From the NCBI RefSeq assembly GCF_003075395.1, contig NZ_QDFV01000006.1, forward strand, positions 62,001 to 126,000: 64,000 nucleotides of DNA, read 5' to 3'. This document shows, piece after piece, positions 5,113-8,462 of this stretch; position 1 is the first letter of the stretch; the number at the start of each line of letters is the position of its first letter. The translations under genes and the position numbers were made by a program. Origin of the DNA: Microbacterium sp. TPD7012 (GTDB lineage: Bacteria > Actinomycetota > Actinomycetes > Actinomycetales > Microbacteriaceae). The notes under the pieces were generated by a model that was not told where the DNA came from, did not search any database, and saw only the letters and a program-made list of their open reading frames with translations.

Positions 5113-6678
5113 TCACGCGGTCTCGACGAACTCCATCAACCGCTCCCCGCTGCGCTCGAAGATGCGTCCGCCGATGACGGCGCCGAGCCAGAGCACGACC
5201 AGGCCCGACAGCAGCCCGACCCAGAAAGCGGCCGGCGCGTACGACGAGCCCTCGACGATCGTCAGAGCGAACAGCCAGGCGGTCGGCAGGCTCAGCACGA
5301 TCGCGCCGAGGAAGGCGGCCGCCGGGCCGTAGATGCCGCGCGAGGTCGGCCGCTGCGGCTGCTGGAACGGGCTGTCGCCCGGTCGCGACACGGCGTAGGG
5401 AGCGACGACGGAGACGATGCTCGAGATGCCGAGCGCGGAGAACAGCAGGCTGCCGGCGAGACCGGTGAGCGGCAGCAGCAGACGCCAGTCCCCGATCAGC
5501 AGCAGCGTGAGCGGGATGGCGATCGCGAGCACAGGGATGGCCACCAGCAGCACCGGCACGAGTCGGCCGAGCCGATCCGGGAGGCCGCGGATGCCGCTGG
5601 CGACATGCGTCCACAGCGCGGTGGAGTCGTAGGCGACGTCGTTGTGCGGCAGCCATCCGAAGAACAGCGCCATCACGGGGACCGGGACGAGCGCGGCGAT
5701 CTCGAGAGGAACGCCGGCGACGATCAGCGGGAGGATCGTCAGCACGCCCGCCACGGGGACCACGATGGTGTTCATGATGTACCGGCGGTCACGCAGCCAG
5801 TAGACGAGGCTGCGTGCGGCGATCGCGCCGAAGGCGTTCGAAGGGAGCAGCCCGAACCAGCCGAGACCGGTCCGCTCGCGGGAGGCCACGGGACGTTCGG
5901 TGGTCGTCAGGAGACGGCGGACGAGCCAGGCCCACACGACCCACAGCAGAATCGCGGTCGCCACGGCGACGAGCCCACTGATCCAGGCCATCGCCGAGGC
6001 GTCGGCGGCGACCGCGAAGAGGAAGCCGGGCGACGCGGCGAGCGGAGTGAATCCGACACTCGTGGTCAGCGCTGCTAGCGATGCCGGAACGTGTCCGTCC
6101 CAGCGCAGCGAGGCGAAGAAGACCGCCACGGGGAAGGCGATCACGATGAGAGCGAGCGCGAACAATGCGGTGAGCTCGCGGGAACGGCGCTCCGGGAGCA
6201 GCAGCGCATTGATCGCCATGCCGACGCGCGCCGTGAGCACCGTGGTGACCACGCCGACAATCGTCATGAGCACGGCCAGCGGCCACGGGGCGCCCAGTTC
6301 GATGGCGACGATGCACACGCTGATGTACACGGCGAGGAGCGCCAGGCTCGGCACGCTCACGAAGGCGGCGAGGGTGAGGACCCAGGGCATCCGTCGCTCG
6401 TCGACGCCGAAGACGGCGAACCGGCGCGGATCGAGCTGGTCCACCGCGCCGACGAGGATCGGTCCGACGAGGAAGCCGAGCAGGAGCGCTGCTCCCCCGA
6501 GCACGGTGACGGCGCGGGCGACCGGCACCGGAGCGTCCGCGAGGCTGAAGACGGCGAGGCACACGGCCACCGTGACCGCGACGACCGCGGCGAAGGTGAC
6601 GAGGGTGCGAACCCGACGTTCTCCGCGCAGCGATCCGATCAGAAGTGCGAACCTCAGTCGGAGAACGTGTGCAGCCAC
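5113..6678 (-). CDS. ABC exporter permease, about 12 transmembrane helices
   Basis: A 521-residue integral membrane protein made almost wholly of hydrophobic helices, resembling ABC-2-type permease subunits. A cytoplasmic loop near residues 245-270 contains TTERPVASRERTG, and another segment near 420-440 is charged (SRPGDSPFQQPQRP). Its GTG start lies inside the end of the upstream ATPase gene (25-bp overlap), so the two form a transporter pair. The ATPase belongs to the class that serves drug or lipid exporters, and substrate cannot be inferred. No TolC-like or accessory gene is adjacent. Confidence 0.8.
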   Translation of the reverse strand: MAAHVLRLRFALLIGSLRGERRVRTLVTFAAVVAVTVAVCLAVFSLADAPVPVARAVTVLGGAALLLGFLVGPILVGAVDQLDPRRFAVFGVDERRMPWVLTLAAFVSVPSLALLAVYISVCIVAIELGAPWPLAVLMTIVGVVTTVLTARVGMAINALLLPERRSRELTALFALALIVIAFPVAVFFASLRWDGHVPASLAALTTSVGFTPLAASPGFLFAVAADASAMAWISGLVAVATAILLWVVWAWLVRRLLTTTERPVASRERTGLGWFGLLPSNAFGAIAARSLVYWLRDRRYIMNTIVVPVAGVLTILPLIVAGVPLEIAALVPVPVMALFFGWLPHNDVAYDSTALWTHVASGIRGLPDRLGRLVPVLLVAIPVLAIAIPLTLLLIGDWRLLLPLTGLAGSLLFSALGISSIVSVVAPYAVSRPGDSPFQQPQRPTSRGIYGPAAAFLGAIVLSLPTAWLFALTIVEGSSYAPAAFWVGLLSGLVVLWLGAVIGGRIFERSGERLMEFVETA

Positions 6679-8462
6679 TCGAGCCCCTCCACCTCTCCGC
6701 TGGAGCCGGCGAGCTCGACGAAGCGCGACTCGAGCGTCTGCCCGGCCCGCACCTCGTCGATCGTGCCCTCGGCGAGCACCTCACCGCCGACGATGATCGC
6801 GACCCGGGAGCACACGCGCTCGACGAGATCCATCCCGTGGCTGGAGAGGATCACGGTGCCGCCGTGCGACACGTAGGCGCGGAGGATGTCGAGGATGACC
6901 GCCGAGGAGACGGGGTCGACCGACTCGAACGGCTCGTCGAGCACCAGGACGCGCGGCGAGTGGATCATGGCCCCTGCGAGCATGATCTTCTTCGTCATGC
7001 CCGCCGAGTAGTCGGAGACGACACGGCTCAGGGCATCGCCGAGGTCGAAGGCGCGTGCGAGGTCGGCGGCACGCTTCTCGATGACGTCCGCGGCCAGGCC
7101 GCGCAGAAGGCCGTAGTAGTAGAGGAGCTGACGGCCCGTGAGCCGGTCGAACGTGCGGAGCCGATCCGGCAGGACACCCATCACCCGCTTCGCCGCGAGC
7201 GGCTGCCTGGCCTGGTCGATGCCGCAGATCACCACGCTGCCCGCGTCCGGACGCAGGAGGCCGGCGACGATGGACAGGGTCGTGGTCTTGCCCGCACCGT
7301 TCGGACCGACGATCCCGTAGAACGAGCCGGCGGGAACCGTGAGGTCGATCCCGTCGACGGCGTGGTTGTCGCCGAACTGCTTGACGAGTCCGCGGATGCT
7401 GATCGCGACGGTGGCGGCCGCCTCGCCGAATGGTCCCACGGCGTCGGATGCCGCGTCGTCGGACTCCGCGTCCGCTCCGGAGACGGCGTCGTCCGGTGTC
7501 TCGACGACGGCCTCGTCCGCGACAGAGGCATCGGCGAGCGCCTCTTCCAGCTCCGCCTCCTCGACGGACGGCTCTTCGACCACGAGCTCCTCGACCGCGG
7601 GCTCGGCGGCGGGATCCTCGACGTCCGATGCGGCTGCGACAGGCTCCTCGACCACAGGCTCGGCCGGGGCCGACGCCTCGACGACCAGCTCCTGCGGCGT
7701 CGGCGCCTCCTCCGCACGAGCGGGTTCGTGAGCGGACGTCGCATCGTCGACGGACGGAGCGCCCTCGACGACCGGAGACAGGCTCGACTCGAGCTCGTCC
7801 GCTGCAGCCTTCGCCTCAGCCGCCTTCTCGGCCGCCGCAGCCTTGGCCGCGGTCGCCTTGGCTGCCGCCGCCTTCGCCGCGGCTGTCTTCGCCGAGGCCG
7901 AGCGTGCCGATGCCGTGCGAGCGGTCGTCTTGGCCGCCGCCGACTTCGCCGCGGCGGACTTCGCGGCGACGGTCTTGGCCGCGGAGGTCTTCGCACTCGT
8001 CTGCTTGGCGGTCGGTGCCTTGGCTGCCGGCGCCTTGGCACCTGAGACCGCCGGCTTCGGGGCCGCGGCCCTCGCCGTGGCCGCGCGCGCCGCGGGCTTG
8101 GTGGACTTCGCCGCCACTGACCTGGCCGCGGTGTTCTTCGCTGCCGCCGCGCGGGCAGCGGCGGTGGTGCGCGCCGCCGCGGCGGTCTGCGTCGGTGCAT
8201 CGATCACCAGCTTGACGGCGGGTTCGATCACGACCTCGCCGGTCGGGGCAGCGGTCTCCGCCGAGGCCTTCGCCGGCGTCCGCGGCGTCGTCTTCCTGGC
8301 AGGAGTCCGCGCGGCCGGCGCCTTCTTGGCCGGCGCCTTCTTGGTCGCGGGGCGACCCGCGGCGCCCGGCTTCGCCGTCGACGCACGCGCCGATGATGCC
8401 TTCTTCGGCGGGGTCTCGGAATCGTCCACCTGGTCGGTGCGGTCGTCAGGGGAAGGAGTCAC
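6654..8462 (-). CDS. ABC transporter ATPase with long histone H1-like N-terminal extension
   Basis: A 602-residue protein in three parts. Residues about 20-225 are a low-complexity basic tail rich in Ala, Lys, Pro, Thr and Arg with repeated AAAKS/AAAKT units, like the DNA-binding tails of histone H1 or actinobacterial HU/Lsr2-type proteins. Residues about 225-345 are acidic and Glu/Val/Pro-rich. Residues about 350-602 are a complete ABC nucleotide-binding domain: Walker A GPNGAGKT (386-393), signature YSAGM (485-489, a variant of LSGGQ), Walker B RVLVLDE (504-510) and the switch histidine in SSHGMD (H542). The distal GTG start is supported by a TACCGT -10 six bases upstream; initiation nearer the ABC domain is possible. 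It pairs with the downstream permease. Confidence 0.85.
   Translation of the reverse strand: MTPSPDDRTDQVDDSETPPKKASSARASTAKPGAAGRPATKKAPAKKAPAARTPARKTTPRTPAKASAETAAPTGEVVIEPAVKLVIDAPTQTAAAARTTAAARAAAAKNTAARSVAAKSTKPAARAATARAAAPKPAVSGAKAPAAKAPTAKQTSAKTSAAKTVAAKSAAAKSAAAKTTARTASARSASAKTAAAKAAAAKATAAKAAAAEKAAEAKAAADELESSLSPVVEGAPSVDDATSAHEPARAEEAPTPQELVVEASAPAEPVVEEPVAAASDVEDPAAEPAVEELVVEEPSVEEAELEEALADASVADEAVVETPDDAVSGADAESDDAASDAVGPFGEAAATVAISIRGLVKQFGDNHAVDGIDLTVPAGSFYGIVGPNGAGKTTTLSIVAGLLRPDAGSVVICGIDQARQPLAAKRVMGVLPDRLRTFDRLTGRQLLYYYGLLRGLAADVIEKRAADLARAFDLGDALSRVVSDYSAGMTKKIMLAGAMIHSPRVLVLDEPFESVDPVSSAVILDILRAYVSHGGTVILSSHGMDLVERVCSRVAIIVGGEVLAEGTIDEVRAGQTLESRFVELAGSSGEVEGLEWLHTFSD

Follow-up and report, generated by a model that had tools for sequence, protein, structure and literature searches.

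A charged N-terminal tail kept by one exporter lineage

The stretch of DNA analyzed here, 64,000 nucleotides (nt) of Microbacterium sp. TPD7012 (contig NZ_QDFV01000006.1, positions 62,001 to 126,000; hereafter the window), encodes on its minus strand an ATP-binding cassette (ABC) ATPase preceded by a long charged tail. Judged from related sequences, the exporter was duplicated, and one of its lineages gained this tail and then kept it. The open reading frame (ORF) runs for 602 codons from a GTG at 8462 to 6654, which agrees with a first-pass annotation made from the letters alone, and is recognized by its length, its Pfam ABC_tran domain and 80 related loci. That annotation described a Lys/Ala/Pro repeat tail at the N-terminus. 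Residues 21-225 (7788-8402) are indeed basic, with 39 Lys/Arg against 9 Asp/Glu (net +30), but the composition is better given as Ala/Lys/Thr, with 86 Ala (42%), 27 Lys, 24 Thr and 15 Pro. The strongly acidic segment that it placed next is present at residues 226-350 (7413-7787; 36 Asp/Glu against one Lys/Arg, net −35), and the complete ABC domain that it saw after this segment occupies residues 351-602 (6657-7412). In an AlphaFold2 model the tail is predicted to be disordered, with scores of the predicted local distance difference test (pLDDT) mostly below 50, in the acidic block as well, and a single helix at 188-226 with block means of 60-86; the ABC domain scores mostly above 90.

The tail is shared by the closest relatives. 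Among the 80 related loci, the top-ranking 80 out of 357 confirmed relatives, seven are cut by a contig end before the start (L003, L013, L019, L028, L051, L068 and L077), and all 73 with a readable N-terminus carry a tail. The expectation that homologues would have the same N-terminus was borne out in the layout as well as in the promoter and start, and the view that such tails are rare among ABC exporters does not hold for this exporter group, in which the tail is the rule. The search patterns behind these loci lie partly in the tail, so this sample may favour tailed proteins. A second sample was picked by permease, taking the best permease match per genome of the family (Microbacteriaceae) and disregarding the ATPase. 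It was drawn from the first 23 matching family genomes, three of which (L106, L110 and L114) were already among 40 added loci described below, and comprises 20 loci, with L152 cut by a contig end. All 19 readable loci have 81-615 residues before the ABC domain, and 16 have TTGnTAnnnT 6-7 nt before the start; L141, L149 and L154 show no TGnTAnnnT-type start, and their tail lengths are mechanical. This second sample, kept outside the tree and outside the tail counts given below, confirms the presence of the tail and its start.

The permease serves as a specific probe: 83 of 100 family genomes contain a match to it, those lacking one (17) are all 2.4 Mb or less in size, and in the class 63 of 296 genomes have a match. 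Many family genomes hold two such matches, and the window's own genome holds one, that of the tailed pair only. For the phylogeny, 40 loci chosen for weak or second permease matches and from other families were added, and the ABC domain and permease were used together (120 sequences after L131 was dropped, 773 columns). Our FastTree analysis places all tailed sequences in one clade with a support of 0.948. The clade has 88 members, seven of them cut by contig ends, and 80 of the remaining 81 carry 84 or more residues ahead of the ABC domain, whereas the 32 sequences outside it all have 48 or fewer. Because the tailed sequences form one clade and those outside are short, this topology argues for a gain in a single lineage. 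Tail-free homologues, which the annotation had regarded as damaging to its reading, exist among paralogues and outside the family, but not among the orthologues. The 32 tail-free rows were assigned by a mechanical rule in 23 cases and by eye in nine (L097, L118, L119, L120, L125, L128, L130, L132 and L134), where the mechanical frame runs far upstream; some other short labels, such as those of L127 and L108, were set shorter than the mechanical frame.

The sole exception among the readable members of the tailed clade is L110 (genome G009), with 24 residues before the ABC domain. This locus keeps neighbours of tailed loci, and of the three frames viewed upstream, another one has a tail-like reading; the exception is probably a frameshift in the assembly. 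A true loss of the tail was set aside in view of these features and of a genome that is 86% complete.

Start site and translation of the long form

Directly 5′ of the GTG, at 8463-8478 on the minus strand, the extended −10 element TTGATACCGT is followed by a 6-nt spacer and then by the start codon, the leaderless-type arrangement that the first-pass annotation had recognized at the distal GTG. In 70 of the 80 related loci the tail opens at an in-frame start that TTGnTAnnnT precedes by 6 or 7 nt. Three others (L053, L062 and L079) have no such start at the scanned spacing and long tails nonetheless, and in L053 and L079 a TAnnnT is visible by eye 6-7 nt before the start. Together with the 6-7 nt spacing and [AG]TG, the motif occurs once on both strands of the 64-kb window, at the tailed ABC gene, and 71 times in the 1,356,008 bases of the 80 related loci, both strands counted. 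The extended −10 at the distal start is far beyond chance.

Leaderless genes have been reported to be marked by a TAnnnT some 12 bp ahead of the start, and they make up more than 20% of actinobacterial genes according to the abstract of that study and 19.2% on average according to its table (PMC3160421). In 70 of the 80 loci, and in 16 of the 19 of the second sample, TAnnnT begins 12-13 nt before the start, and by sequence the tailed gene of the window carries this mark. The longer TTGnTAnnnT, with its 6-7 nt spacing, is more tightly kept than a bare TAnnnT would require. An AGGA just 5′ of the window's GTG, absent in most other loci, may have a Shine-Dalgarno role in this one gene.

The tail also evolves as a translated sequence would. 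In 16 close pairs, chosen from among all pairs, the ratio of nonsynonymous to synonymous substitution rates (dN/dS) is 0.23-0.46 in the tail in every pair and 0.008-0.081 in the ABC domain, with dN at 0.09-0.45 in the tail versus 0.002-0.034 in the ABC domain, and the third-position GC content of the tail is that of a translated frame. Since the promoter and the tail are conserved to this extent and the tail dN/dS falls in this range, the long form is almost certainly made. The contrary reading, a mis-called start with the protein beginning near residue 345 and the tail left untranslated, is so improbable that we rule it out: in-frame start codons near the ABC domain do exist in 66 of 71 tails (70 loci and the window, the set used in all tail counts), but only 10 of the 71 have a Shine-Dalgarno-like pentamer there, at scattered places, none contains within the tail a TAnnnT followed 5-8 nt later by an in-frame start, and the conserved distal promoter, the third-position GC and the dN/dS all fit translation from the GTG.

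Charge pattern of the tail

All 71 tails are longer than 150 residues (range 155-664, median 318). No conserved sequence motif was seen in the tail in an alignment of 37 full-length proteins, in which little beyond the ABC domain aligns, and the tails are alike only at their start, 53 of 71 beginning with M-T and 48 having Asp or Glu as residue 11. The arrangement of charge recurs more widely. The most basic 60-residue window lies ahead of the most acidic one in 67 of the 71 tails; a window of net +8 or more is present in 68 and one of net −8 or less in 60, and 57 tails have both strong blocks, basic then acidic. Summed over the whole tail, net charge is positive in 33 and negative in 38. Charge segregation beats all 1000 within-tail shuffles in 37 of 71 tails, and its direction is basic-to-acidic in 65.

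The ATPase of an ABC-2-like exporter

Pfam places ABC_tran (PF00005) at residues 370-512 (E 2.8e-24), and on all 602 residues it returns only ABC ATPase and related nucleotide-binding models, all C-terminal. Four motifs come together in this one ABC_tran domain, GPNGAGKT at 386, SAGM at 486, LVLDEP at 506 and SSH at 540, which we take to be the Walker A, signature, Walker B and H-loop motifs, respectively. The NCBIfam drrA model matches residues 361-573 with a score of 204.6 against a cut-off of 312.45, and by that rule the protein is not a drrA member. The best matches of the ABC domain in the PDB are ABCA-type lipid transporters, and Rv1218c is matched at E 3.7e-35.

The adjoining permease gene (521 residues; 5113-6678, minus strand) overlaps the ABC gene by 25 nt, an overlap kept in 78 of the 80 related loci. 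In L065 the two genes do not overlap, the permease standing some 2.1 kb downstream of the ABC gene, a displacement that reflects an insertion or rearrangement. The permease has no match in Pfam or NCBIfam, and its profile has no sequence match in the PDB at E below 0.4. Its structural model (pLDDT 81) is more informative and has an ABC-2-like C-terminal half: residues 282-512 align with CcmB at a Z score of 15.9 and a root-mean-square deviation (rmsd) of 3.4 over 213 residues, and ABCG and NosY align over similar ranges. Rv1217c is, among the matches listed, the only permease aligning, if loosely, along nearly the whole length (359-367 residues, rmsd 7.1-8.1 Å), with Z scores of 10.4-11.0 that fall under the value of about 13 below which such scores can be unspecific for helical models; the best of these by Z is 8k1n_C (361 residues, Z 11.0, rmsd 7.1 Å). 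Foldseek returned no match to the permease model at E 0.001 or below, and its comparison with Rv1217c gave a template modelling (TM) score of 0.27-0.34 with E at best 0.01. The modelled ABC-2-type permease fold beside the ATPase is the arrangement of a type V exporter, and sequence and model together assign the tailed gene as the ATPase of an ABC-2-like (type V) exporter. Because the analogy with Rv1217c-Rv1218c puts two ATPases under one fused permease, each pump would carry two tails.

Proposed role of the tail

Tentatively, and with somewhat less than even confidence, we read the tail as a disordered electrostatic module that positions or clusters the exporter and that one Microbacteriaceae lineage gained and kept. 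The base of this reading consists of the long ORF, the conserved start, the single-lineage gain, the translation-type selection, the usual charge order and the predicted disorder, and from it we infer a stoichiometry, a binding partner and clustering. Two ATPases under one fused permease would extend two tails per pump into the cytoplasm. The acidic block, nearest the ATPase, would form a spacer both stiff and mutually repelling, and the basic block farther out, held away from the ATPase, would be the electrostatically sticky end. Its partners could be polyanions (nucleoid DNA or RNA, anionic lipid) or the acidic blocks of neighbouring pumps, and through such contacts the exporter would be placed or clustered. 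This is an umbrella under which two sharper forms stand, clustering of pumps through their charge blocks and tethering to DNA.

Several observations weigh against it. In 17 of 71 tails more than 50 of 1000 shuffles reach the observed charge segregation, ten of these tails being from Cryobacterium or Agromyces loci. A basic block is almost missing from L031, L035 and L069, whose best 60-residue windows carry a net charge of +2, +2 and 0, and L036 and L039 have no real acidic block. In the second sample the basic window comes first in only 15 of 19 tails, and a window of net +8 is present in only 14, being absent in L140, L142, L146, L150 and L154. Aromatic residues are few in the tails (median of one Phe/Trp/Tyr), so any clustering would need charge as its driving force. 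The 71 tails, moreover, share ancestry, and the rows are not independent. In view of the second sample, the charge order is a strong tendency and not a rule, and its five tails without a strong basic block lead us to put less weight on the electrostatic module, on DNA tethering and on a link to the nucleoid, and more on a tolerated expansion of the N-terminus. With best 60-residue net charges of −2, +3, +5 and +1, L140, L146, L150 and L154 are natural test cases for the basic block.

Of the two sharper forms, attraction between the opposite blocks of neighbouring pumps, drawing them into membrane nanoclusters, is possible but rather unlikely. The tails do hold blocks of opposite charge, and Rv1747 offers a precedent: its N-terminal regulatory region, consisting of two FHA domains and a disordered linker, is described as condensing, with the pumps forming nanoclusters (PMC9312465). 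The FHA domains of Rv1747 are said to participate, however, and Pfam, scanned with the full 602 residues, lists none in the tailed protein at E up to 1; in addition, a second strong charge block is missing in L036, L039 and others.

Alternatively, the N-terminus could have grown by slippage at repeats in a high-GC genome, leaving a low-complexity expansion that is tolerated and has little function beyond being harmless. The fast change seen in the tail dN, the variable length in both samples, repeats such as EEPVVEEPVVEEP in the L001 tail and a charge order that is not universal are all consistent with this explanation. It is nevertheless unlikely, as the tail is kept in every readable locus of both samples, dN/dS is well below 1, the charge order is kept in 67 of 71 tails and the start is maintained while the sister paralogues stay short.

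The electrostatic reading lends itself to experiment. Tail residues drift while the charge order, mostly, and the start site are kept, so the idea of a charge pattern is testable by scrambling. The tailed and tail-free lineages of the duplicated exporter, often present in one genome, also form a natural experiment on the use of a disordered tail.

Likeness to lysine-repeat DNA-binding tails

The first-pass annotation had likened the basic stretch to histone H1, and the likeness is supported by the window's own genome, in which the basic block, apart from matching itself, gives a single significant match (E 3.1e-5, across one stop codon): the C-terminal lysine-repeat tail of type I topoisomerase (TopA). 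The 16-residue word RSAAAKKAAATRAANA is identical in this TopA tail (L136) and in the exporter tails of L061, L063, L066, L072, L075 and L076, and the tails of L048, L054 and L055 have 14-15 residues in common with it; none of 200 shuffles per tail reaches the sharing seen in these nine. The word suggests either a vocabulary common to such tails or tail pieces transferred between genes. A 45-residue TopA-like piece of the L055 tail had no match in 40 family genomes, a null that is uninformative according to the tool's own warning. A review presents lysine repeats as resembling histone H1, as occurring in HrdB, Ku and HupS, and as required by Ku and HupB for interacting with DNA (PMC7398561). 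Given the word sharing with TopA and this reviewed role, DNA binding by the basic block is plausible on the sequence.

A tether, in which the basic block would bind chromosomal DNA as the TopA and HupB tails do and so link the exporter to the nucleoid, is a stronger statement, and we find it distinctly unlikely. In its favour are the TopA match and the long common words, the 14 of 71 tails whose word sharing with TopA exceeds all 200 shuffles, and the DNA role of lysine repeats in the reviewed cases. However, the window's own tail has only 7 consecutive residues in common with TopA, a value reached by 11 of 200 shuffles, and is less densely charged (best 60-residue net charge +13 versus +18). 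Three [AST]2-3K units fall within a span of 20 residues in only 35 of the 71 tails. Furthermore, the absence of a real basic block in L031, L035 and L069 and of a +8 window in five of the 19 tails of the second sample, together with the 38 net negative tails, speaks against DNA binding as a general role. The fullest version, an exporter physically linked to the nucleoid by two DNA-binding TopA-like tails per pump, with the acidic block as a spacer off the membrane, is more doubtful still. If the basic block binds DNA, the tail would be a membrane-to-nucleoid link, and if the nucleoid link is true, transport, membrane and chromosome would be mechanically coupled.

Gene neighbourhood

Just downstream of the permease, at 4806-5072 on the minus strand, lies a gene for a DUF3039 protein (Pfam), which from the spacing is probably in the same operon as the exporter; the protein also has a weak zf-HC3 match, below the cut-off. 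The neighbours are well conserved in the 80 related loci, with DUF3039 in all 80, pncB in 78, a divergent nucleoside triphosphate (NTP) transferase gene in 70 and murI in 62. In the 40 added loci, DUF3039 has a match only in the seven that fall in the tailed clade and in none of the tail-free ones, and from this distribution the DUF3039 protein is a possible partner of the tailed exporter. A 334-residue protein encoded at 9487-10491 on the plus strand has no match in Pfam or NCBIfam, and in 48 of the 80 loci a match to it stands beside the NTP transferase.

Comparison with known systems

The tail-free paralogous exporter of the same bacterial family has an ABC domain 56-64% identical and a permease 28-34% identical, often in the same genome. 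Its ABC domain is preceded by 4-48 residues (in three cases set by eye), it has none of the conserved neighbours, and by scan TGnTAnnnT is missing from its start except in the divergent L108. Among characterized pumps, the Rv1217c-Rv1218c multidrug efflux pump (8k1m-8k1p) resembles the tailed exporter in having a separate ABC ATPase and one long permease, but the solved Rv1218c chain (311 residues) matches the ABC domain from its residue 8 and so has no long N-terminal tail.

The lysine-repeat tails of TopA, Ku, HupB and HrdB are, like the exporter tail, rich in Ala and Lys, and words are common to the exporter tails and TopA. These are DNA-acting proteins, whereas the exporter tail is N-terminal, stands on the ATPase of a membrane exporter and continues into a large acidic block. 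A membrane-to-nucleoid link of this kind was not found described in the titles and abstracts searched, and the same search returned no description of Microbacteriaceae exporters with such tails.

The nearest functional precedent, a partial one, is Rv1747. As presented in PMC9312465, it is likewise an ABC exporter with a disordered N-terminal linker ahead of the ATPase; it differs in its two FHA domains, in its phosphorylation by PknF and in having the ATPase and the membrane part in one chain, where the tailed exporter has a separate permease. Since it has no FHA match, the tailed protein is not a member of the Rv1747 kind. A 2026 survey that cites Rv1747 presents elevated disorder of the N-terminal flank as a property of ABC transporters independent of their architecture (PMC13257379), which makes the tail less surprising. 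Set against these systems, the ABC exporter is an ordinary one and the tail is its new part.

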